This document shows, one piece after another, positions 31,900 through 62,785 of a stretch of DNA of 64,000 nt. Numbering within the stretch: position 1 is the stretch's first letter; every line of letters begins with the position of its first letter. A program made the translations under genes and the position numbers. Source of the stretch: Candidatus Eisenbacteria bacterium (GTDB taxonomy: Bacteria > Eisenbacteria > RBG-16-71-46 > CAIMUX01 > JAHJDP01); contig JAHJDP010000077.1 in NCBI GenBank assembly GCA_018831195.1, positions 124,001 through 188,000 on the forward strand, given 5' to 3'. The notes under the pieces were generated by a model. The model was given only the letters and a program-made list of their open reading frames with translations. It did not search any database and was not told the DNA's origin.

Positions 31900-32664
31900 T
31901 TACCGATAGGTGCTCTTTATGGTCCCCCAGGTGGAGGATTCGGCCGGCGTCGGCTGGCCGCCACCGCAGAGCCATTCAACAACGTTGATCACATACTGGT
32001 TCGAACCGGGATCGGCCGAGTTCGCACTGAGATTCGACGTGTCGAGGAACACCTTGCCGTTGCTGTACAGACCGCCGGCGCAGTGGACATCAGTAGCGCA
32101 GGTGCCGGTGCCCTGGGCGATCAGGGTATAGCCGGCTCCAAGATTCGTCGTGTAGATGGTATCGAAGCGCCCCGGCAAATCCACGGCATTGAGACCGTCC
32201 ATCGTGGGATGTCCGGGCTCGACGATCGCATTTGCGTCCCAGGGCATACAAAATCCAACAGCCGTGATGTAAAGCCCAAACCCCGTTGGGGCATAGTCCA
32301 ATGCTCCCGTCGCAGCGCCCGGCTGGTGAATGTACAACCCGCCGCCTCCGCCGACGTAGGCTTCTAGATCGGCCTGATAGGAAGCGATGAACCCAGGACC
32401 AACAAGGGGAATGACAACGACATCATAGCTCGAGATGTTCGCAAAGCTCAGGTTTGAGCCCACGGTTACGCTGTAACCAAGACCCGTGAAGCGAATCACC
32501 TCATTCAACGGATCATTATAGAAATAAACTGTGCATTCTCTGTTGGCGTGATTGTCTTCGAAGTTGACCCAAACATCGGGATCATATCCGGTATGGTCCG
32601 GTTCGGCGACAGCCACACCGGTCAGCACTAGAATACACAGGAAACCGAGAACCAAGTGTCTCAT
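31900..32664 (-). CDS. Secreted GATase-like (ThuA-type fold) protein with WG-x-IK C-terminal motif
   Basis: A 254-residue exported protein. The signal peptide is residues ~1-20 (cleavage after GVAVA). The middle resembles the Rossmann-like class I glutamine-amidotransferase/ThuA fold: 'YDVVVIPLVGPGFIASYQADLEAYVGGGGGLYIHQ' is the nucleophile-elbow region but lacks a Cys, so catalysis is doubtful. The C-terminus TPAESSTWGTIKSTYR resembles the end of the unrelated protein at 38643-39365 and may be a sorting signal. GGAGGA precedes the ATG at 32664; the frame is open upstream without an initiation site. Confidence 0.65.
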   Translation of the reverse strand: MRHLVLGFLCILVLTGVAVAEPDHTGYDPDVWVNFEDNHANRECTVYFYNDPLNEVIRFTGLGYSVTVGSNLSFANISSYDVVVIPLVGPGFIASYQADLEAYVGGGGGLYIHQPGAATGALDYAPTGFGLYITAVGFCMPWDANAIVEPGHPTMDGLNAVDLPGRFDTIYTTNLGAGYTLIAQGTGTCATDVHCAGGLYSNGKVFLDTSNLSANSADPGSNQYVINVVEWLCGGGQPTPAESSTWGTIKSTYR

Positions 32665-32943
32665 TTGATTCCTCCAAAGGTGCATGCATACGTTCGTATT
32701 AAACAACCGGTTGCGCCCCCGGGACAAACAGCACCATGGCCAATGGCTCCCGGAGACAGAAGGCATTATAGGGTATGCGGGATCGAAAGTAAAGCGCGAA
32801 TCCCGGCCCCGGCCTGCGCGTCTGATTTATCAAGTTCAGCATGCCGGCGACGACGACGCCGGCCGACGCATGCCGCGCAGAGTAGATGCCCGATGGAATT
32901 TTAAATCTCAATGTGACCCCGGAATCGGTTTACTCGTTCTCGA

Positions 32944-34566
32944 TCAACGAAGTACGACGACCTTTGCCATACCCACCTGGTTTCCGGCCTTCAGACGGAT
33001 GAGATAAACGCCCGATGCGACAGGGCGGCCCTGCCCATCCATACCGTTCCAGGAGACCCTGCGCCATCCGGGGGACTCCACCCGGTCCGCCAGAGCGCAT
33101 ACCTCTCTCCCCCTCAGATCGTACACGCCCAGCAAGACGCGACCGTCGGCGGGCATCTGAAACCAGACTTCCGTTTGGCCCTGGAGGGGATTCGGTGAGC
33201 ATGCCAGCGCGACGCGGCAGGGATAGCGGATATCATCCCCTTCATCGACATCCGCCGCCATCACCAGGAGTTCCTCGTACGTCGCATCGCTGATCGGAAA
33301 ATTGAGGTCGCGGAACTCGTCGCGCAGATCGGTATCGAACGCGAACGATTCAGCCGTGACCATGAGGGTCGCCCGGAAAGTGTCGGCCTCGGCCGTGTCG
33401 TTCTGCTGATCGTACCTTTGTTGAAGGTCTTCATTAAAGACGGAGAGAAGCCGTGTCATCCGTCCGGCGGGTCCGGCATAACCCTCACCCGCCCCTTCCG
33501 CATGGGCGCAAAATTTGTAAGCCAGCGTCATAAACGTATCGAAGGTTTCATCCTCCGGCGTCACCGGGTCATTCCACGACGCGAAGTTCATGCCTTCGGA
33601 GATGTACCGTTCGTAGGCGTTCCTGACAACTCCAATCGTCTGGATGGCGTTCTGTTGGATGTCGAAGATGAGATCATCGCTCAATCCGTACGCCTCACCC
33701 TGGTTTATCATTTCATAGGCCGTTGCATGCTGGAAGATCTGCGCCATCGTCTCGGAATAAATGGCGTTTGCACATCCGTCGATCTTCCCGCCGTAATAGA
33801 AGCCTGCGGGGAAATTGAGGGTTACGTTGTGTCCCATCTCATGCATAAAGGATGACCACTGCACGGTTCCCTGGAAGGCGTAATCGGCGGCAGCGAAGCT
33901 GACGGGACTTGTGTACCAGAGCGAATACATCCCCGGGAAATCCGCATCCCTTAAGACGACCTGCCGGAAGCCGCCGTCAATCTGGAACAGGTCATCGTTC
34001 ACCATCCCTTTTTGCATGAACGCCGTGACGGAGAGAAGATACTCTACAGCTGATCTGGAGATGACGGTGAAAAACTCGTCACCAAAAAAAACGAGATCGT
34101 CGGGGATGCCGTAACCGGGCATTCGGCTGGTCAGTTCCACGAGGGAATCGGGAACAGAGACGGCGACCTCTTCAGGGATCGGAAGTGGATCAATTTCCGG
34201 CGGGACAAACCGGATGAGAACCTGCGTCGAATCGGTTTCATCGCCGTCATAGTGAGCGGTTATCGTGAGGATATAGTTTCTTGAAATATCAGCGTAGGTG
34301 TGGTCCTGGGGGAACCAACCGTCGTTAACCTGATTATCGCCCCAGTTCCATGTGAACGGAATCGAAGGGCCCTGGCTGTCGCAGCCGTTCACCAGCACGT
34401 AGCCCGTCGTCTCGTTCATCTCGACGATCCACGCATTTAACGTCGGCAAACCGCCTGACAGGTACCGCTCGAATGTGAAATCTCGTTGCCCCGCCATTGC
34501 CGGCACGGTCCAAAGGTGCGCCAGCATCGACAATATCATCGCAGATTGTACAATTCTTGTGGCCAT
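32944..34566 (-). CDS. Secreted zinc metallopeptidase with PKD-like and FlgD-like domains
   Basis: A 540-residue exported protein. The signal peptide spans residues ~1-26. An Ig/PKD-like domain (~27-122: 'PFTWNWGDNQVNDGWFPQDHTYADISRNYILTITA') precedes the catalytic part. The zinc motif HEMGH (242-246) is set in 'SSFMHEMGHNVTLNFPAG', and 'NAIYSETMAQIFQHATAYEM' may supply the third ligand. The C-terminal ~85 residues are a FlgD-like Ig domain ('LLGVYDLRGREVCAL', 'WNGMDGQGRPVASGVYLIRL') ending KVVVLR. GGAGGG precedes the ATG at 34566. A surface-attached protease is likely. It is separated from the neighbouring minus-strand genes by 190-280 bp, so it probably has its own promoter. Confidence 0.8.
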   Translation of the reverse strand: MATRIVQSAMILSMLAHLWTVPAMAGQRDFTFERYLSGGLPTLNAWIVEMNETTGYVLVNGCDSQGPSIPFTWNWGDNQVNDGWFPQDHTYADISRNYILTITAHYDGDETDSTQVLIRFVPPEIDPLPIPEEVAVSVPDSLVELTSRMPGYGIPDDLVFFGDEFFTVISRSAVEYLLSVTAFMQKGMVNDDLFQIDGGFRQVVLRDADFPGMYSLWYTSPVSFAAADYAFQGTVQWSSFMHEMGHNVTLNFPAGFYYGGKIDGCANAIYSETMAQIFQHATAYEMINQGEAYGLSDDLIFDIQQNAIQTIGVVRNAYERYISEGMNFASWNDPVTPEDETFDTFMTLAYKFCAHAEGAGEGYAGPAGRMTRLLSVFNEDLQQRYDQQNDTAEADTFRATLMVTAESFAFDTDLRDEFRDLNFPISDATYEELLVMAADVDEGDDIRYPCRVALACSPNPLQGQTEVWFQMPADGRVLLGVYDLRGREVCALADRVESPGWRRVSWNGMDGQGRPVASGVYLIRLKAGNQVGMAKVVVLR

Positions 34567-34757
34567 AATCCACCCTCCATGCAAAGCGGCTCATCCAAAC
34601 GCCGCAACACATAAAGTCCAGCCATTCGACTCGAAACCCGCCTGCGCCCTGCAATGGCATCGCAAGCTGATGCGCCCGGCCTCGGCAGAAATATTATAGG
34701 AGCGGCGACGACCAAACGACAAGGGTCGCCTTCTCCGCTGTCCTTCTTCCGCCTCCT

Positions 34758-37517
34758 CTATTTCCGGCATCCGCAATCGGTTTGAACGTGGCAATAGGGA
34801 TGTGCCGTCCGGAAGGCGCAGACCTGCCCGCAAGAGTTCACATCCAGGTTGTTGTTGAGCACATTCAGATCCTGCATGGAATTATGCGCCATGATGGGCG
34901 TGAGGTTGATCGAGTTCAGGTCGTTGTCGGGCAGATCCAACCATGTCAGGTTAGTACAGGTCTGCAGAGGCGCCAGATCGATGGATACAAGGTCATTGTC
35001 TCCGAAGTTGATCGACCGGAGCCGCAGGCAGTTGCCCAGAGGAGCCAAGCTGACATGATCGAGCGAATTGCTGTTGAAGGCGACGATATCCAGTCGCGGA
35101 CAGGAGGCCAGCGGCGTGAGATCGATGGTGTCGAGATTGTTCGTCCCCGCGGCCAGGAAGATCAGCCGTGTGCAGGTCGCCAAAGGCGTGAGATCAAGGG
35201 CGTCCAGCCCGCACTCGTTGAATTCCAGGTTGCGGAGGTTGGGCACCGACCCCAGAGGGGTAAGGTCGATTTGGCCGAGAGGATTCCTTCTCAGGATGAG
35301 ATATTCCAGGCTGTCGCATTCCGCCAGCGGCCCCAGATCGAGACCGCCGATCGAGTTGTCTGTGGCCCAGAGCTGGCGGAGTTGCTTGCACGAGGACAGC
35401 GGGTTGAGGTCCAAGGAGACGAGGCTGTTGCCGGATAGATACAAACCGCGTAGATCGGTGCATCCGGAGAGCGGGCCCAGATCGACCGCGTCCAACCCAA
35501 GGTAACCCAGGTCCAGAGACTGGAGGCGCTTGCAGACCCGAAGCCAGGAAAGGTTGATCAAATCCAGATGATTGCCCGGCCCGCTGAAGGAGCCTCCATA
35601 GAGATTCAGCTTCTTGAGCTCCCCGGCGTAGTATTCGATTCCTTGCAAGCAGTTCAGATCGGTCAGGTTCATGTCCCGGAGATCGATTTCGGTCACGCAT
35701 CCTCCTGAAGACCGGACCACTTTCGACTCGGGGATGTCTATCCCGTTGAGCACAACCGGCAAATCCGGTTCACACCTCCGCGCTGTGACCGTGATCGTAG
35801 TGGGTACATAGTTGGTTTGACTGCCCTGAGAGCGGTTCACCATCAAGACCAGGGCCTTGCCGTCGGCCGCCCATTCGTCCAGCCGGGGAACGACCATTTC
35901 ATGCCCGCTCTGAGTGATCGATCCATAACGGCTCCACATTTGGCCGCGCTTGTATTCGTAGGCAAGGACCTGGCAGCCGCCCTCCTCATCCATCAGACTC
36001 ACGGAGAGGGAAGATCCTTGAGGAAACGCCGCCCCTTCAGCAAAGAACACGGTGTAGACGTGCGCCGTCCAGTCTGTGGCGTACCAGCTGAAGGTTGTCC
36101 CGCTGTCCGTGGGGCTGCTGAAGGCGTAGGTGGCATTCCTGCCCTCCACGATCTTGTCCGGATGGGGGAAGGACGGCACATCTTGATAGATGGCCCCGTC
36201 CATCCAGGCATAGCAGAAGCTGCGCCAGATTGCTTCGAATCCAGCCGTGTACTGCGAAACGACCTCGTTGACGGCGTTTAGGGGGTTGCGCGATTCCAGC
36301 CTCAGCTTCAACACATCTCCTATCCTCCGGTCCCCGCCGGTGACCCCCTCAAAGGTGGCGCCAAGAAAGAGCGAGGCGCCGTAGCCATGATTCTGAACCA
36401 GCCAGCAGTCCGTGCAGGAGCCGGCGGCGGTGAGGGTCGGCGAGTATTGAAGGGAGTGGGAGCAGAGAAAGCGATAATCCGCTTCGACAACGGATTGGGT
36501 CACATACTGAGTGCCGGCCATCTTGCGTTCGAACCAGGTCGACATCGCCTCGTTCATCCAGTACCACTCATTCGGAGCACCCTGGAGGATACGATAGCGC
36601 GGATCATAGAGGTGTTGCATCAGATGGAACAACTCGTGTCCGACCGTGACTGCCAGTTCCTGACTGCCCGGGCTGGCCATGACCTTGGTCTCGTTCAGGA
36701 GGATCTCGTCGTAATCAGCCCCATACCATTTACTCGGAGAATGAAGTCCCCATTTCTCGGTGTCGGCGGTGGAGAAGGGCTGGATCGTCACCTGAATCGG
36801 GCGCGTCCGCTTAGCCCAGGAGAGCTGCAGGTCATCGCGCAGCTTGCTGTAGGCGCTCTCCAGTAGCGTCCCCAGCTGCGCGACCGTCCCCTGAAGGCCG
36901 GAGTTGTAGGTGATGAAATGGAAATGTCCCTCGGCGCTCACATCTCTCTTGATACCCGAGGTGCCGGAGACATCCAGAGTCCCCTCCGCCGTGTCGACGA
37001 AGGGATGCGCCGGAGTTGGGGTGGACTTCTCGGAGGGTGTGGCCGGCAGAAGGGCGGACAAGCCGGTTTCTCCGGCCGATGCGGCCAGGGTGACCCCGCA
37101 GCGTCTGAAATCCGCCCCGCTGTCGACCCATGTGTCGGTCTCTTCAATGAGAATGGCGTACTCACCATCAGGCGGCGGATCTCCGGGCATGACGATTTGC
37201 AAAGAGCACGGAAGAACGATCGTCTCCGGCAGGCCAATGACACGAAATACCGGCGTCGCGCGGTGTGGATTCTCCGGCGCTTGCGCCGTCACGTCCGTCA
37301 CCTTGAGGGTGGCCGGTTCGAGAAAGGCTCCCGGTGGGACGACGAGACGGAATCCCTCGGTCTCGAGCACCCCCCCCTCCGATGTAATCGTCACTTCGGT
37401 CAGATCGGGCTGGCCGTCATCCTCCACGCTCAACCGCTCCCGGTCCGAGCAGGAGAGCGCGCAGAATAGACCGGCCGCCAGCGAAAACCTCAACGCCATC
37501 ACCCATGAATTTCTCAT
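34758..37517 (-). CDS. Lipoprotein with ZU5-like, gluzincin peptidase and leucine-rich repeat domains
   Basis: A 919-residue lipoprotein (lipobox ALSC, Cys23). Residues ~40-75 look like a ZU5 domain ('TITSEGGVLETEGFRLVVPPGAF'). A metallopeptidase domain follows with HELFH (294-298) and a downstream Glu in NEAMSTWFE (~323), the gluzincin arrangement. After a beta-rich section, the last ~300 residues hold about nine leucine-rich repeats of 23 residues with a regular DL-x-PL-x-x-C-x-x-L-x-x-L pattern, ending in a Cys-rich cap (CHVQTDCGC). GGAGGTG precedes the ATG at 37517. The peptidase-LRR combination suggests a surface enzyme with a built-in binding scaffold. I recognise no named family with this order. 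Confidence 0.75.
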   Translation of the reverse strand: MRNSWVMALRFSLAAGLFCALSCSDRERLSVEDDGQPDLTEVTITSEGGVLETEGFRLVVPPGAFLEPATLKVTDVTAQAPENPHRATPVFRVIGLPETIVLPCSLQIVMPGDPPPDGEYAILIEETDTWVDSGADFRRCGVTLAASAGETGLSALLPATPSEKSTPTPAHPFVDTAEGTLDVSGTSGIKRDVSAEGHFHFITYNSGLQGTVAQLGTLLESAYSKLRDDLQLSWAKRTRPIQVTIQPFSTADTEKWGLHSPSKWYGADYDEILLNETKVMASPGSQELAVTVGHELFHLMQHLYDPRYRILQGAPNEWYWMNEAMSTWFERKMAGTQYVTQSVVEADYRFLCSHSLQYSPTLTAAGSCTDCWLVQNHGYGASLFLGATFEGVTGGDRRIGDVLKLRLESRNPLNAVNEVVSQYTAGFEAIWRSFCYAWMDGAIYQDVPSFPHPDKIVEGRNATYAFSSPTDSGTTFSWYATDWTAHVYTVFFAEGAAFPQGSSLSVSLMDEEGGCQVLAYEYKRGQMWSRYGSITQSGHEMVVPRLDEWAADGKALVLMVNRSQGSQTNYVPTTITVTARRCEPDLPVVLNGIDIPESKVVRSSGGCVTEIDLRDMNLTDLNCLQGIEYYAGELKKLNLYGGSFSGPGNHLDLINLSWLRVCKRLQSLDLGYLGLDAVDLGPLSGCTDLRGLYLSGNSLVSLDLNPLSSCKQLRQLWATDNSIGGLDLGPLAECDSLEYLILRRNPLGQIDLTPLGSVPNLRNLEFNECGLDALDLTPLATCTRLIFLAAGTNNLDTIDLTPLASCPRLDIVAFNSNSLDHVSLAPLGNCLRLRSINFGDNDLVSIDLAPLQTCTNLTWLDLPDNDLNSINLTPIMAHNSMQDLNVLNNNLDVNSCGQVCAFRTAHPYCHVQTDCGCRK

Positions 37518-37849
37518 CCCGCACCTCCCACCATACCCTGCCGGCGTGTCCCGCATGCCGGCGAACGAAAGTTGCGAACAAGTCTATCGGGTCGCACCGC
37601 TGATTGGGTGCGCCATCCGGTGACATCGGACACTGATTCCGGTGATGCCGGCCACCGATCGGAGCGCCGGCGACGCGTAGCGATTCATTCCCACTGCATC
37701 TTCTCTGTTTTCGTTAAGCGCTTCTTCCATCCCGTCAATGCGCCCTTGATTTGGTTGGATGAATTTCCCCCGGCTTGTTCAACTTCCTCGCCTTGGAAAA
37801 CTTCAATTCAGGCCGCGCTCATTATGACACAGGTGGAGCCCGAAAGGGA
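37518..37849. other. Intergenic region
   Basis: No supported gene. Around 37625-37680 there is a GC-rich stretch with repeated 'CCGGTGATGCCGGCCACCGAT'-like words that resembles insertion-sequence flanks, but I cannot define ends. Confidence 0.35.
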
Positions 37850-38190
37850 GATCGGAGGATCGCGGTTGCGATCTTGGTGCGGGGCTAGCCGATCCTCATG
37901 AAGGGTTATGGCCTGCGCGACGTCGAAGGGAATCTCCCGGTCACGGAGAGAACCAATTTCACCATTCGGTACTCGGCCAAGTTCTTCACCGCCGTCGTCA
38001 TCGACCACATCGGCAACCCGCACGAGCACTGGCCCTACGACATCTTCAACTGCGTGAAAGACGCCTCTGACCCGGTCTTCGAGGACAAAAAATCCACAAT
38101 GGACTTCAAGGGGAATGTCGACGAATTATGCATCATGCCAGAGCTGGGGTTGGAGGAGATCACCATTCACCGCCGGCCCGAGAGACAGCT
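37850..38190 (+). pseudogene. Partly deleted second copy of the serine hydrolase gene
   Basis: The DNA at ~37850-37950 matches the hydrolase gene at ~40095-40185 (GATCGCGGTTGCGATCTTGG, then ATGAAGGGTTATGGCCTGCG). Sequence at ~37990-38130 matches ~41280-41410 (ACATCTTCAACTGCGTGAAA). The ~1.1 kb between, holding the catalytic Ser and Tyr motifs, is missing, and small indels interrupt the frame before 37898. A 127-residue open frame (37898-38281) spans the fusion but encodes no active site. It lies 1.4 kb upstream of the intact gene in the same direction, so it is a decayed tandem duplicate. Confidence 0.85.
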
Positions 38191-38219
38191 GCTCGCGAGG
38201 CGCCGTGGGTGTCGCGGCC

Positions 38220-38445
38220 GGTCAAACGAGCCGTTGGATTTGTCATCCGTCATCCAGAAGGCGGTCCAGGCAAAGTCGTAGCTGAGGACGGAATGGTCAT
38301 TGATGATCAGGTGCAGAGCGGCGCGCAGCGGCTCACCCGAGAGCCCTTCCGCGGCGTTGACATATCCCGCGGGGGCGCTGTAGTCGATGGAACTCGAACT
38401 CGCAGAGGGCCCCATCCATGTCATTCCAGAAAAGATCCTCGGCAC
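38220..38445 (-). pseudogene. Fragment of a secreted endonuclease I family protein
   Basis: On the minus strand 'DYSAPAGYVNAAEGLSGEPL', 'RAALHLIINDHSVLSYDFAW' and 'TAFWMTDDKSNG' match the start of the endonuclease I (EndA/NucM) domain, where family members read 'YY..A.GLTG..LK.ALH.II..H..LSY...W.AL..TD.D'. The catalytic part is absent; the frame runs into the hydrolase duplicate. The upstream portion continues in another frame (38333-38608), so both a frameshift and a truncation are present. Confidence 0.6.
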
Positions 38446-38642
38446 CCGTAACGGTCGGTGTACAAGTCCCCTCCGACATCGGTGAGTGGCTTAGATCGAC
38501 CTGGCCGGACTCGCCTCCGCCGGATAGTCTATAAGCGTCAAGCGGCCGTCCGGCAATTTGGCTCCATCCCCCACCCTCCCGCTCCAGAGTCCGTTCTTGT
38601 TGGACCACTCCTCTGCGGGAAAGCCAACGAATCTCTGCGGAT

Positions 38643-39365
38643 TCATGGGCGGTAGAGATCCTTGATCCGCCCGAACGTCATGCCTTCGACCGGGGTCGCC
38701 CCCACCGTTTCCACCAGAACCCGGTCGAAGATCGAAGGTCCCTCGCCGTAGTCGAACAGCATCACCGCAGCCGCGGCGCCCAGGTCCTCACGGGTAAAGG
38801 TCGCAAAAGCCGTGGTGTAGTCGATCGGTCCCGAAGAGAACGGGGGAGAATCGGTGGAGACACTGAACGACGCCGGTCCCAGGACCACCGTGAGCCGGAT
38901 CGGCCCGCCGGTATAGCCGACCAGATAGCCGACGTCGTACCATTGGAGGCCCCCTTCGACATCCGCAGCGTTCACTTCAATCCGGCCGCCTTCCCATTGG
39001 ATGGCGCAGAAAAAGAGCGCGCCGTCCGGAAAACCAGGACCGACAAAGAGTCCGCTCGCCCCTTGACCGGCGATACCGACAAATTCGGTCTCGATCGTTA
39101 CCGTCCCGGAACCGGGGTCGATGGTCGCGTCACTGCTGATGGCGACCTCTCCCGGAATGGGGCCGCCGCCCAGGGTGACCGTCGTGCCCGCTTCGACAAC
39201 GGCTCCCATTCCGGCGATGCGAGACCAGCCCGCCGGCATCCCGCCGGAATCGCCTGTGAAATGGTCGTCGAAGACGATCGCCGCCAAAGCTGATCGCGGG
39301 GCCGCCAGTGAAAGGAATACCAGAGGCAGTCCCAACAATAGGTACTGACAGAAGCGCCGCATCAT
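38643..39365 (-). CDS. Secreted beta-rich protein with FG-x-IK C-terminal motif
   Basis: A 240-residue exported protein. The signal peptide covers residues ~1-28 (cleavage after SALA). The mature part reads like a concanavalin/laminin-G-type jelly roll ('FDDHFTGDSGGMPAGWSRIAG', 'TVTIETEFVGIAGQG', 'IRLTVVLGPASFSVS'); no catalytic residues are apparent. It ends TPVEGMTFGRIKDLYRP, matching the tail of the unrelated protein at 31900-32664. GGGAGGTG precedes the ATG. A structural or binding role on the surface is likely. Confidence 0.65.
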   Translation of the reverse strand: MMRRFCQYLLLGLPLVFLSLAAPRSALAAIVFDDHFTGDSGGMPAGWSRIAGMGAVVEAGTTVTLGGGPIPGEVAISSDATIDPGSGTVTIETEFVGIAGQGASGLFVGPGFPDGALFFCAIQWEGGRIEVNAADVEGGLQWYDVGYLVGYTGGPIRLTVVLGPASFSVSTDSPPFSSGPIDYTTAFATFTREDLGAAAAVMLFDYGEGPSIFDRVLVETVGATPVEGMTFGRIKDLYRP

Positions 39366-39597: not shown

Positions 39598-41748
39598 ATG
39601 ACGATTCCCCCTTGCCCTCTTTGGCGGCGCCGCTTGGGCGCCGCAGCGCTCCGGACCGCCCTTGTTTTTCTCGGCCTTTCCACGCTGTGGACACACGCCA
39701 TCGCCGCCGAGCTGACCGGCCATTGGGTCGGTTCGATCGAACTGCCCGGCATGAAGCTCGAGATCGATATCGATTTCGCCGGAAGCCCCGGCGCCTGGAC
39801 CGGGGACATCACCATCCCGGCGCAGGGCGCGAGGGATCTCCCCCTGACCGCGATCACCCTCGATGGAGAGGCGGTCTCTTTCGCCATCGCGGATATCCCG
39901 GGCGAGCCGACCTTCAAGGGAATGTTAAACATCGATGAGTCAACCATCGCCGGAGACTTCACCCAGGAAGGGCAAACCTTCCCCTTCAAGCTCGCCAGCC
40001 GGCAAGGCCGGGGCGCGGCAGCCCTGGCTTCCCTCGAGGGTTTTGACGCCGTGGTGGAAAAGGGACTCAGCGACCTGAAGGTACCGGGGATCGCGGTCGC
40101 GATCCTGGTCGGAGGCGAGCCTATCCTCATGAAGGGGTATGGCCTGCGCGACGTTGAGGGGAATCTCCCGGTCACGACGGAAACCCTCTTCGCTATCGGC
40201 TCCTCGACCAAGGCCTTCACCGCCTTCGTCCTCGGCACCCTGGTGGACGAGGGGAAGCTGGAATGGGATAAGCCGGTCTATGATTACATCCCGGATTTCC
40301 GTCTGAAGGATATGGAGATCGGATCGAGGGTCACCCCCCGCGATCTGGTTACGCACCGCTGCGGGCTGCCGCGCCATGACCTGGTCTGGTACAACAACAC
40401 GGAGCTGAGCCGGAAGGAACTCGTGGGCCGGCTCGCCGCCCTCGAGGCCAACAAAGACCTGCGCCAGAGCTGGCAGTACAATAATCTCGCCTATCTCACC
40501 GCCGGCTACCTGGCCGAAGTGCTGACCGGCCAGAGCTGGGAAGATTGTGTAAGAGAGCGGATCTTGCAACCGCTCGAAATGAACACCACCAACTTCTCGG
40601 TCGAGGCGTCGCAGAAAAGTGCGGATTACGCGCTCGGCTACCGGGAGGACGAGGGGCAGATCCTGCGCATGCCCTTCCGCCCCATCACAAACATGGGACC
40701 GGCCGGATCGATCAACTCCAGCATCGATGAGATGTCGCACTGGGTTTCGCTGCAGCTCTCGCAGGGAATGTATAAAGATGCGCCGCTGATCCAACAGGCG
40801 ACCCTGGCGGATCTGCAGACGCCGCAGATGGTCATCGCGGCGCCGCCCGACCCGCGGCACCCGGAGCTTCCGCAGACGAGTTACGCTATGGGCTGGTTTG
40901 TACAACCGTATCGAGGGCACTACCGGCTGCAGCACGGCGGCAATATCGACGGTTTCACCGCGCATGTTTCCTTCCTCCCCCAGGACGGCATCGGATGCGT
41001 CTTCCTGGCGAATAAGAACGATGCAACCTTGCCGGTGTTGCTGGAAAGAGTCGCGCTCGACCGGATCTTCAACCTCGAGGGCCGCGACTGGATCGGGGAG
41101 TTTCTGACCCTGAAAACGCAGGAGGAGCAAGCCGGGAAGGAGGCGGAGGAAAAGGCCGAGCTGATCCGGGTCAAGGGGACCAAACCGTCGCATCCGCTGT
41201 CCGATTACGCGGGCGAATACGAGAACCCGGGATACGGCGTCATCCAGGTCGACCTGCGGGACAAGAACCTCGCCGTCGTGATCAACCACATCGCCAATCC
41301 GCTCGAGCACTGGCACTACGACGTCTTCAACTGCGTGAAAGACGCCTCCGACCCGGTCTTCGAGGAGACGAAGATCCAGTTCACAATGAACTTCAAAGGG
41401 AACGTCGACGGATTACGGATCGCGCTCGAGCCGTTGGTGGAAGAGATCATCTTTCACCGGCGGCCCGATGCCCGGCTCTCGGATCCCGCCTTCCTCGCCC
41501 ACCTCGCCGGCTCTTACACATTGGTGGATGAGACCATCCGCTTCGAGTTGAAAGGAAACGGATTGATCCTGGTCGTCCCCGGCCAGCCCCCCTACGAGCT
41601 GATTCCGGACCGCGGCACCGAATTCAATCTCAAGGGGATTAGCGGATACAGCGTGACCTTCATCCTGGACAAGGATGACAGGGTGGAAGAAGTGCGTTTC
41701 AACCAGCCGAACGGTGTCTTCTCGGCCAAGCCGGCGGCGAAGAGGTGA
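39598..41748 (+). CDS. Exported serine hydrolase (class C beta-lactamase family) with C-terminal DUF3471-like domain
   Basis: A 716-residue protein. The signal peptide spans residues ~1-37. A ~100-residue N-terminal beta domain precedes the beta-lactamase/transpeptidase-like domain (~148-495): SxxK is SSTK with Ser202 and Lys205, YxN is YNN (294-296), and the third motif is HGG in 'LQHGGNIDGFTAHVSF'. The C-terminal ~200 residues ('LSDYAGEYENPGYGVIQVDLRDKNL' and 'FLAHLAGSYTLVDETIRFELKGNGL') are DUF3471-like beta domains common on such hydrolases. Members are peptidases, esterases or D-stereospecific amidases rather than true beta-lactamases. TTAGGAGA precedes the ATG. A broken copy lies upstream at 37.9 kb. 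Confidence 0.9.
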   Translation: MTIPPCPLWRRRLGAAALRTALVFLGLSTLWTHAIAAELTGHWVGSIELPGMKLEIDIDFAGSPGAWTGDITIPAQGARDLPLTAITLDGEAVSFAIADIPGEPTFKGMLNIDESTIAGDFTQEGQTFPFKLASRQGRGAAALASLEGFDAVVEKGLSDLKVPGIAVAILVGGEPILMKGYGLRDVEGNLPVTTETLFAIGSSTKAFTAFVLGTLVDEGKLEWDKPVYDYIPDFRLKDMEIGSRVTPRDLVTHRCGLPRHDLVWYNNTELSRKELVGRLAALEANKDLRQSWQYNNLAYLTAGYLAEVLTGQSWEDCVRERILQPLEMNTTNFSVEASQKSADYALGYREDEGQILRMPFRPITNMGPAGSINSSIDEMSHWVSLQLSQGMYKDAPLIQQATLADLQTPQMVIAAPPDPRHPELPQTSYAMGWFVQPYRGHYRLQHGGNIDGFTAHVSFLPQDGIGCVFLANKNDATLPVLLERVALDRIFNLEGRDWIGEFLTLKTQEEQAGKEAEEKAELIRVKGTKPSHPLSDYAGEYENPGYGVIQVDLRDKNLAVVINHIANPLEHWHYDVFNCVKDASDPVFEETKIQFTMNFKGNVDGLRIALEPLVEEIIFHRRPDARLSDPAFLAHLAGSYTLVDETIRFELKGNGLILVVPGQPPYELIPDRGTEFNLKGISGYSVTFILDKDDRVEEVRFNQPNGVFSAKPAAKR

Positions 41749-61114: not shown

Positions 61115-62785
61115 ATGCGGCGCATTCTTTTTATGGTTGGGATCATGGTTGTGAGCCTGCCGTCGTTGTCCCATGGAGCCATGCGTACCGTATGTCCGGA
61201 CGGCTCCGGTGACTACATCACGATACAAGCCGCAATCAATGCTTCCGTCAATGGAGACGTCATTGTTCTTTGTAATGGCATTTTCCTAGGGGATGGCAAC
61301 CGAGATATCGATTATCTCGGCAAAATGATAACCGTGCGTTCACAGGGGGGAAATCCCGAGGCCTGCATCATCGACTGCGGAGGCAATCCCCACCGTGGAT
61401 TCAACTTCCATTCTGGTGAGGGAAGCGGTTCGGTGCTGAAGGGAGTCAAGGTCAGGAACGGTTTCGCCGCAACAGGCGAAGGTGGCGGGATCTACTGCGA
61501 CGGGGCTTCACCGACGATCGATAATTGCATTCTTGAAGACAATGTCTGCCCCGGTGGGTATGGAGCCGGCTTCTTCTGCAGGAGCAGCTCCCCTGCGCTC
61601 AATAACTGTACATTCTTCAACAACGGCACGGGTGTGGAAATCGCCGGAGGGGGGATGGCCTGTCTCGATTATTCCTCCCCAATCCTTACCGGGTGCGTTT
61701 TCGAAGAGAATCGGGCGCAGGCCGGCGGGGGCGGCATGATCTGTGCGGGGATTTCGAATCCAGCGTTGACGGATTGCCAATTTTGGGGGAACAGCCTTCA
61801 GCAGATCCCCGGCGCCTGGGGGGGCGGCCTCTTCTGCTGGTCCAGCGCTTCCCCCGTCTTGGAGGGGTGCCTCTTCGATGGGAACCTGGCCACCTGCGGT
61901 GGAGGGATTGCCTGTTATGACCACTGTGATCCCGTGTTGACCGGATGCGTCTTCTCGGAAAACGCCTCGGGCGGAGGGGGCGGGGCTTTCTTCAAATACA
62001 TCTGCAACCCTCAACTCGTCGATTGCACATTCAACAACAACAGCGGCGATTATCCGGTAAACGGATCCGGAGGAGCCATCCTTTGCGACGCCTCATCTCC
62101 CACATTGACAACGTGCACGTTGGCCGGTAATTACGCCACGACCAGCGGGGGGGGCATCTATCTTTATCAATCCTCACCCTCGATCGAGCGGACGATCATT
62201 GCCTTCAACACAATCGGGGAATCTGTTTATTGCTACGGCACCGGCAGTTCCCCCACACTCACCTGCTGCGATGTTTATGGGAACGCCGGCGGGGATTGGG
62301 TCGGATGCATCGCCGGCCAATCGGGCCTTAACGGCAACATCTCCCTGGACCCACTCTTCTGCGACGCTGCCAACGGCAATTACTGCCTGGCGGATGGATC
62401 TCCCTGTGCCCCGTTCACAGCCCCCAATCCGCAATGCGACCTGATCGGCGCCTGGCCGCCCGGCTGCAACGCGGGTGTGGCCGAGGAGACTGTCGTGGAA
62501 TCCGGACTCGGGCTGGAAGCTTTCCCGAGCCCGTTCACAACATCAGCGAGTATCAGGTATTCCCTGCCTGCTCGCGCGGTGGGGGCATTGGTGCTTCTCG
62601 ACATCTATGACACGGCGGGCCGAAGGGTGCGCCGGCTCGTCGACAGCCAGCCGACCACTCAATTGGCGACGGTGGAATGGGACGGCCGGAGCCAGAACGG
62701 CGAGCGCATGGCGGCGGGAATCTACTTCGCCCGGCTCGGCGCCGGAAGGGAAAAGGTCAGCCGGCCCCTCATCTTGATTCGATGA
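61115..62785 (+). CDS. Secreted right-handed beta-helix protein with FlgD-like C-terminal domain
   Basis: A 556-residue exported protein. The signal peptide covers residues ~1-22. 'DGSGDYITIQAAINASVNGDVIVLCNGIF' is the usual opening of Pel-type beta-helix proteins. Many parallel beta-helix turns follow ('GGGIYCDGASPTIDNCILEDN', 'GGGMACLDYSSPILTGCVFEEN'), each ~24-30 residues. The C-terminal ~85 residues are FlgD-like ('VLLDIYDTAGRRVRRLV', 'VEWDGRSQNGERMAAGIYFARL') ending RPLILIR. No catalytic cluster of a pectate lyase is recognisable, so a surface adhesin or glycan-binding role is as likely as an enzyme. TAGGAGGTG precedes the ATG. Confidence 0.8.
   Translation: MRRILFMVGIMVVSLPSLSHGAMRTVCPDGSGDYITIQAAINASVNGDVIVLCNGIFLGDGNRDIDYLGKMITVRSQGGNPEACIIDCGGNPHRGFNFHSGEGSGSVLKGVKVRNGFAATGEGGGIYCDGASPTIDNCILEDNVCPGGYGAGFFCRSSSPALNNCTFFNNGTGVEIAGGGMACLDYSSPILTGCVFEENRAQAGGGGMICAGISNPALTDCQFWGNSLQQIPGAWGGGLFCWSSASPVLEGCLFDGNLATCGGGIACYDHCDPVLTGCVFSENASGGGGGAFFKYICNPQLVDCTFNNNSGDYPVNGSGGAILCDASSPTLTTCTLAGNYATTSGGGIYLYQSSPSIERTIIAFNTIGESVYCYGTGSSPTLTCCDVYGNAGGDWVGCIAGQSGLNGNISLDPLFCDAANGNYCLADGSPCAPFTAPNPQCDLIGAWPPGCNAGVAEETVVESGLGLEAFPSPFTTSASIRYSLPARAVGALVLLDIYDTAGRRVRRLVDSQPTTQLATVEWDGRSQNGERMAAGIYFARLGAGREKVSRPLILIR

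Follow-up and report, generated by a model that had tools for sequence, protein, structure and literature searches.

We analysed a 64,000-nucleotide stretch of a Candidatus Eisenbacteria genome (contig JAHJDP010000077.1, positions 124,001 to 188,000; hereafter the window), in which two genes on the minus strand encode exported proteins ending in a common short C-terminal tail. The first open reading frame (ORF; 31900..32664, −), whose likely start is at 32664 rather than at 32766, encodes a protein of 254 aa with a Sec signal peptide (MRHLVLGFLCILVLTGVAVA; 32605..32664, −) recognised by eye and by a heuristic, and closes with the tail TPAESSTWGTIKSTYR and the stop codon (31900..31950, −). The second (38643..39365, −) encodes 240 aa, with a Sec signal peptide recognised by eye (MMRRFCQYLLLGLPLVFLSLAAPRSALA; 39282..39365, −) and a variant tail followed by the stop codon (TPVEGMTFGRIKDLYRP; 38643..38696, −), in which F replaces W and one extra residue is present; one to six extra residues also occurred in other tails. 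Both tails, identified by pattern match and in the sequence itself, lay where a first-pass annotation had described them, and its statements that each protein has a signal peptide (plausible at each N-terminus) and that the two bodies are otherwise unrelated were borne out. The labels “GATase-like” and “jelly-roll-like” that it gave to the bodies are still guesses, because neither body could be assigned to a family of Pfam or NCBIfam at E < 0.05. The core pattern occurred twice in the window against an expectation of 0.11, a count reached by none of 100 shuffles, and a relative of the first protein from another genus (L016) also bears the tail.

Counts for the window's own genome (5.24 Mb) came from pattern searches and from selected stretches. 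The pattern with a stop codon gave 13 matches against none for the reversed pattern; in one of the 13 (L010), TGG follows in place of the stop, and the match sits in the leader of another tail gene. A looser pattern without the stop gave 16 matches against four reversed, and about 16 proteins of this genome end in the tail. Across the window's phylum, Candidatus Eisenbacteria, the strict DNA pattern matched 270 times in 43 of 47 genomes. It matched 653 times in all 20 genomes of a second phylum (that of genome G054), reaching 58 matches in one 3.2 Mb genome, and 238 times in 63 of 80 genomes of a third (that of G047, labelled Krumholzibacteriota, with one genome labelled Latescibacterota). The reversed-pattern controls gave 0 (Candidatus Eisenbacteria), 0 and 1 matches in the three phyla, and three matches came from 148 genomes of a distant phylum to which a Candidatus Binatia genome belongs; chance was ruled out by these two controls. 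In a contig scan at least 119 stretches matched, and where the title was informative it mostly named Candidatus Eisenbacteria or Krumholzibacteriota/Krumholzibacteriia. Tandem arrays of three to five paralogous small tail-bearing genes were seen at four loci (L216, L212, L218 and L219), which suggests recent expansion of tail proteins. The leader of the tail-protein ORF at L009/L010 (G000:C78:31433-31459) encodes a second tail-like stretch, RGRIKALYRW, which is not at a stop and is possibly a remnant of an upstream gene.

The consensus from 193 distinct tails was [TSV]-P-V-E-x-x-[ST]-W-G-x-I-K-x-[LIM]-Y-R-stop, a conserved unit of about 16 residues. Conservation extended beyond the search pattern, with S or T at position −10 in 189 of the 193, a hydrophobic residue at −3, and P at −15 in 118. 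Arg was the exact chain end in 187 of these 193 pattern-selected tails, and Lys ends were rare in a profile scan; further variants, such as TTWGSIKVVYE-stop and TTWGSIKRTYQ-stop, also exist. The codons for Gly, Tyr and Arg varied freely, with all six Arg codons in use, and the residues stayed fixed; selection therefore acts on the protein, and an RNA-level or repeat element was ruled out on the same observation. Over the whole tail-protein set the mean column identity was 7%, with W, G, I, K, Y and R constant. AlphaFold2 models of two tail proteins (mean pLDDT, the predicted local distance difference test score, 63 and 38) showed an unstructured linker and then, with low confidence, a helix at the tail, which is suggestive of a helical tail. 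Isolated tails had no match in NCBIfam or Pfam even with the threshold relaxed to E ≤ 10, and no Pfam/NCBIfam model (release 20, June 2026) describes the tail. Literature searches, whose coverage excluded subscription papers and preprints, returned no description of it. The tail is a real, uncatalogued C-terminal tag.

A position-specific profile built from the tails was run over all ORFs of the DNA examined, about 2 million positions. It matched exactly at the C-terminus 250 times, at one to six residues before the end 29 times, and at seven and nine residues before the end once each. The tails counted had themselves gone into the profile, so the number of matches is not independent; its internal positions are. 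Among these 281 matches in about 2 million positions, none lay deeper than nine residues from the C-terminus. The first-pass annotation had held that the motif occurring internally or in cytoplasmic proteins as often as at the ends of exported ones would speak against a sorting signal; all 281 of 281 were at the stop or one to nine residues before it. The pattern without a stop matched 61 times in the window's phylum, and all 11 of the 11 matches inspected ran into a stop one to six residues later, by which an internal motif was rejected.

The enrichment in signal peptides that the same annotation had proposed to look for was pronounced. By the heuristic, 134 of 147 tail ORFs (91%) had a signal peptide against 155 of 519 neighbouring ORFs (30%; Fisher p about 6e-43), and several of the 13 tail ORFs without one were truncated or had a misplaced start. 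The bodies of 113 tail proteins represented over 30 Pfam families whose folds are unrelated, including beta-helix, NHL, CBM20, lamin tail, PKD, FG-GAP, laminin G and FGE-sulfatase, and this spread, with the low column identity, ruled out a shared domain family. NCBIfam assigned choice-of-anchor E, V and J domains, a ScyF-type NHL protein, and relatives of rhombosortase-dependent M36 proteins. Bodies of the choice-of-anchor, ScyF and M36 types carry differing sorting signals in different bacteria, as their family names reflect; the ScyF-type protein bears PEP-CTERM in cyanobacteria. The tail therefore seems to occupy the place of a sorting signal. The same body domain was also found with a type A C-terminal domain (CTD), a signal of the type IX secretion system (T9SS), in one protein and with the tail in another, in three pairs (L107/L150, L117/L015 and L082/L068). 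One short end thus recurs on many unrelated exported proteins and is absent internally, as expected of C-terminal sorting signals in general. From its C-terminal restriction, the enrichment in signal peptides and the diversity of the exported bodies, the tail is very probably a linear sorting signal of Sec-exported proteins, and the sequences in this respect favour the first-pass reading.

As to what would read such a signal, recognition by the T9SS is, by analogy, the leading idea because of the SprA, PorV and type A CTD genes in tail-bearing genomes, the similar layout of the chain ends, and published work on CTDs. SprA, the T9SS translocon, was found in 71 of 74 genomes tested, and 37 of 38 genomes had 6–18 copies of the PorV/PorQ family. 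The number of type A CTDs (TIGR04183) in a genome ranged from 40 up to at least 113, with the Binatia genome left aside. One of them adjoins the first tail gene of the window, in an exported protein (32944..34584, −) whose C-terminus (residues 464–544, about 32953–33195) scored 24.9 bits against TIGR04183 (cut-off 23) and 23.5 bits, below the cut-off, against FlgD_ig; a second window protein (61115..62785, +), assigned from its C-terminal sequence and the length of its ORF, has a FlgD/type A-like C-terminus ending in PLILIR. A second, parallel signal in the same organism, which the first-pass annotation had put forward, is accordingly present. Type A ends in these genomes carried a basic residue at −6 (28 of 29), hydrophobic residues, and K or R at −1 (24 of 29); the tail, with K at −5, hydrophobic residues at −3 and −2 and R at −1, is laid out in a broadly similar way. 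In published work, PorV is contacted by a Lys that is nearly invariant and lies close to the end of type A CTDs (PMC10994853). Targeting of HBP35 maps to its last 22 residues and tolerates a C-terminal extension (PMC11285876), which matches the natural tails with one to nine extra residues, and Prevotella intermedia has short CTDs of 43–55 aa (PMC11969387). Tail proteins combine a Sec signal peptide with a C-terminal signal in genomes that have SprA and the PorV family, as T9SS cargo broadly does. Tail count correlated with PorV copy number (rho 0.58) and with the number of type A CTDs (rho 0.45) over 33 genomes, uncorrected for phylogeny. The single match in the Binatia genome (G051), which has neither SprA nor the PorV family, is on a contig that also carries an ORF with a type A CTD and is probably foreign. 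The genomes G000–G074, of FCB-type (Fibrobacteres–Chlorobi–Bacteroidetes) phyla, have SprA and 6–18 PorV/PorQ copies, though several T9SS papers describe the system as specific to Bacteroidota.

With moderate confidence, we propose that the tail is read through the T9SS/PorV route. The signal peptide would bring the protein to the periplasm, where a linker rich in P, T and E would present a short and possibly helical peptide. Its hydrophobic positions are W, I, L/M and Y, position −5 is always Lys, and the free C-terminus is Arg. This end would be bound by a receptor in the envelope, most likely one or several shuttle barrels of the expanded PorV/PorQ family of the T9SS. The tail, as an ultra-short substitute for the folded type A CTD, would then lead small proteins through SprA to the surface or the outside; we infer a surface location for tail proteins.

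Several observations weigh against reading by the T9SS. Within the window's phylum the correlation of tail count with PorV copy number was weak and not significant (p 0.08). The surroundings of tail genes showed no enrichment of PorV-family genes (3 in 1.27 Mb), and a gene linkage of the kind known for type B CTDs and porP/sprF was not seen there. A tree was built from 101 PorV-family sequences (loci L274–L372) of 12 genomes, six tail-poor and six tail-rich, and in it no PorV orthogroup followed tail abundance (other gene candidates were not searched): four orthogroups were universal, and one enriched in tail-rich Eisenbacteria was missing from the tail-richest phylum. Three tail-poor genomes (G038, G017 and G024) retain SprA and PorV, and the presence of a T9SS is therefore no predictor of tail number. 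Bacteroidota, which bear T9SS, were absent among the contig-scan matches listed, and none of the published T9SS signals found was as short as the tail or lacked beta strands. The co-occurrence with one transpeptidase or secretion gene that the first-pass annotation had predicted is not established, because in the comparison of the 12 genomes no single machinery gene co-varies cleanly with the tail. In the same tree, orthogroup OG6 was present in all six tail-poor and in none of the six tail-rich genomes, with an uncorrected p of 0.002 and phylogenetic clustering.

Part of this evidence would sit better with a tag for sorting or retention that is held non-covalently by a dedicated receptor outside the T9SS, which might be an outer-membrane, S-layer or polysaccharide-binding protein. 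The tail does not resemble CTDs of type A or type B, its occurrence is essentially limited to a few phyla where that of the T9SS is wider, and it is tracked by no PorV orthogroup. However, no candidate receptor emerged, and among the loci examined no fitting recurrent family stood beside the tail genes. We regard such a receptor as the main rival, possible if less probable than the T9SS route; its fullest form, in which a linear 16-residue peptide defines a separate, T9SS-independent outer-membrane route with its own receptor for up to about 58 proteins per genome in at least three uncultured phyla, is nearly as probable.

A short, chain-terminal peptide with a defined last residue could also be a mark for quality control, recognised by a periplasmic chaperone or a C-terminus-specific protease and having no part in localisation. 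This would leave unexplained both the restriction to exported scaffold, lectin and beta-helix proteins and the interchange with type A CTDs, and we consider it improbable. A little less probable still is covalent attachment, by an L,D-transpeptidase as for Braun lipoprotein or by a sortase or exosortase: the C-terminal position and basic end would suit it, the C-terminal stretch of Braun lipoprotein is also basic and includes an aromatic residue, and one tail (L051) ends in YRK, but the last residue is Arg and not Lys in nearly all tails, and no transmembrane segment follows the motif as PEP-CTERM, MYXO-CTERM and GlyGly-CTERM need. Shared descent, with the tail as the conserved end of one diversified family and no function of its own, is the least credible of all: a single-linkage body cluster of 96 ORFs, 58 with tails, speaks for it, but tails persist on bodies of demonstrably independent origin with unrelated folds and keep W, G, I, K, Y and R fixed where little else is shared.

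Two further features lie between the tail genes of the window. An exported protein of 932 aa (34758–37556, −) contains leucine-rich repeats and weakly matches HExxH metalloproteases of the MXAN_6640 type; it ends in CGCRK, which is neither tail type. On the plus strand, 37859–38191 holds a remnant, a partial duplicate of the beta-lactamase-family-like gene at 39598–41748, in which residues 165–233 and 559–627 of the parent, separate there, are adjacent (55–67% identity).

The tail is a simple rule by which some of the exported proteins can be recognised in candidate phyla with almost no cultured members. If the T9SS reads it, a folded CTD is not required, and the signal shrinks to a peptide suited to dissecting recognition and building reporters; if not, a sorting route not known so far is indicated. 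In both cases, proteins that at present are annotated as hypothetical gain a feature that can be tested.

Among known systems, substrates of the Braun-lipoprotein-like L,D-transpeptidases differ in the C-terminal Lys that is linked to peptidoglycan, where the tail has Arg. The exosortase, rhombosortase and myxosortase signals (PEP-CTERM, GlyGly-CTERM and MYXO-CTERM) resemble the tail as short C-terminal tags on many unrelated exported proteins and have several body families in common with it (ScyF, M36 and choice-of-anchor), but consist of a motif, a transmembrane helix and a basic cluster, whereas tail proteins end at the motif or one to nine residues on. Type B CTDs (TIGR04131) are likewise an alternative T9SS signal, read by other shuttles (PMC12618676), yet exceed 100 aa and are often encoded beside porP/sprF, whereas no linkage of tail genes to the PorV family was seen. 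The short CTDs of P. intermedia (PMC11969387) are a reduced T9SS signal that keeps the basic residue of motif E; they contain three beta strands as well as motifs B, D and E, and it is the motifs that are not evident in the tail. The tail falls outside the TIGR04183, TIGR04131 and PEP-CTERM classes, because it matches no model and has neither the folded domain of the first two nor the transmembrane helix of the third. From the type A CTD (TIGR04183/PF18962), a folded beta-sandwich of 70–100 aa, it differs in being about 16 aa on a linker, in its WG and Tyr motifs, which type A lacks, and in having no profile match, and Por_Secre_tail was not among the families listed for the 113 tail proteins; the two nevertheless share the C-terminal position on Sec-exported proteins of the same genomes, a basic residue near the end, hydrophobic residues and a basic last residue, and they replace one another on some body domains.

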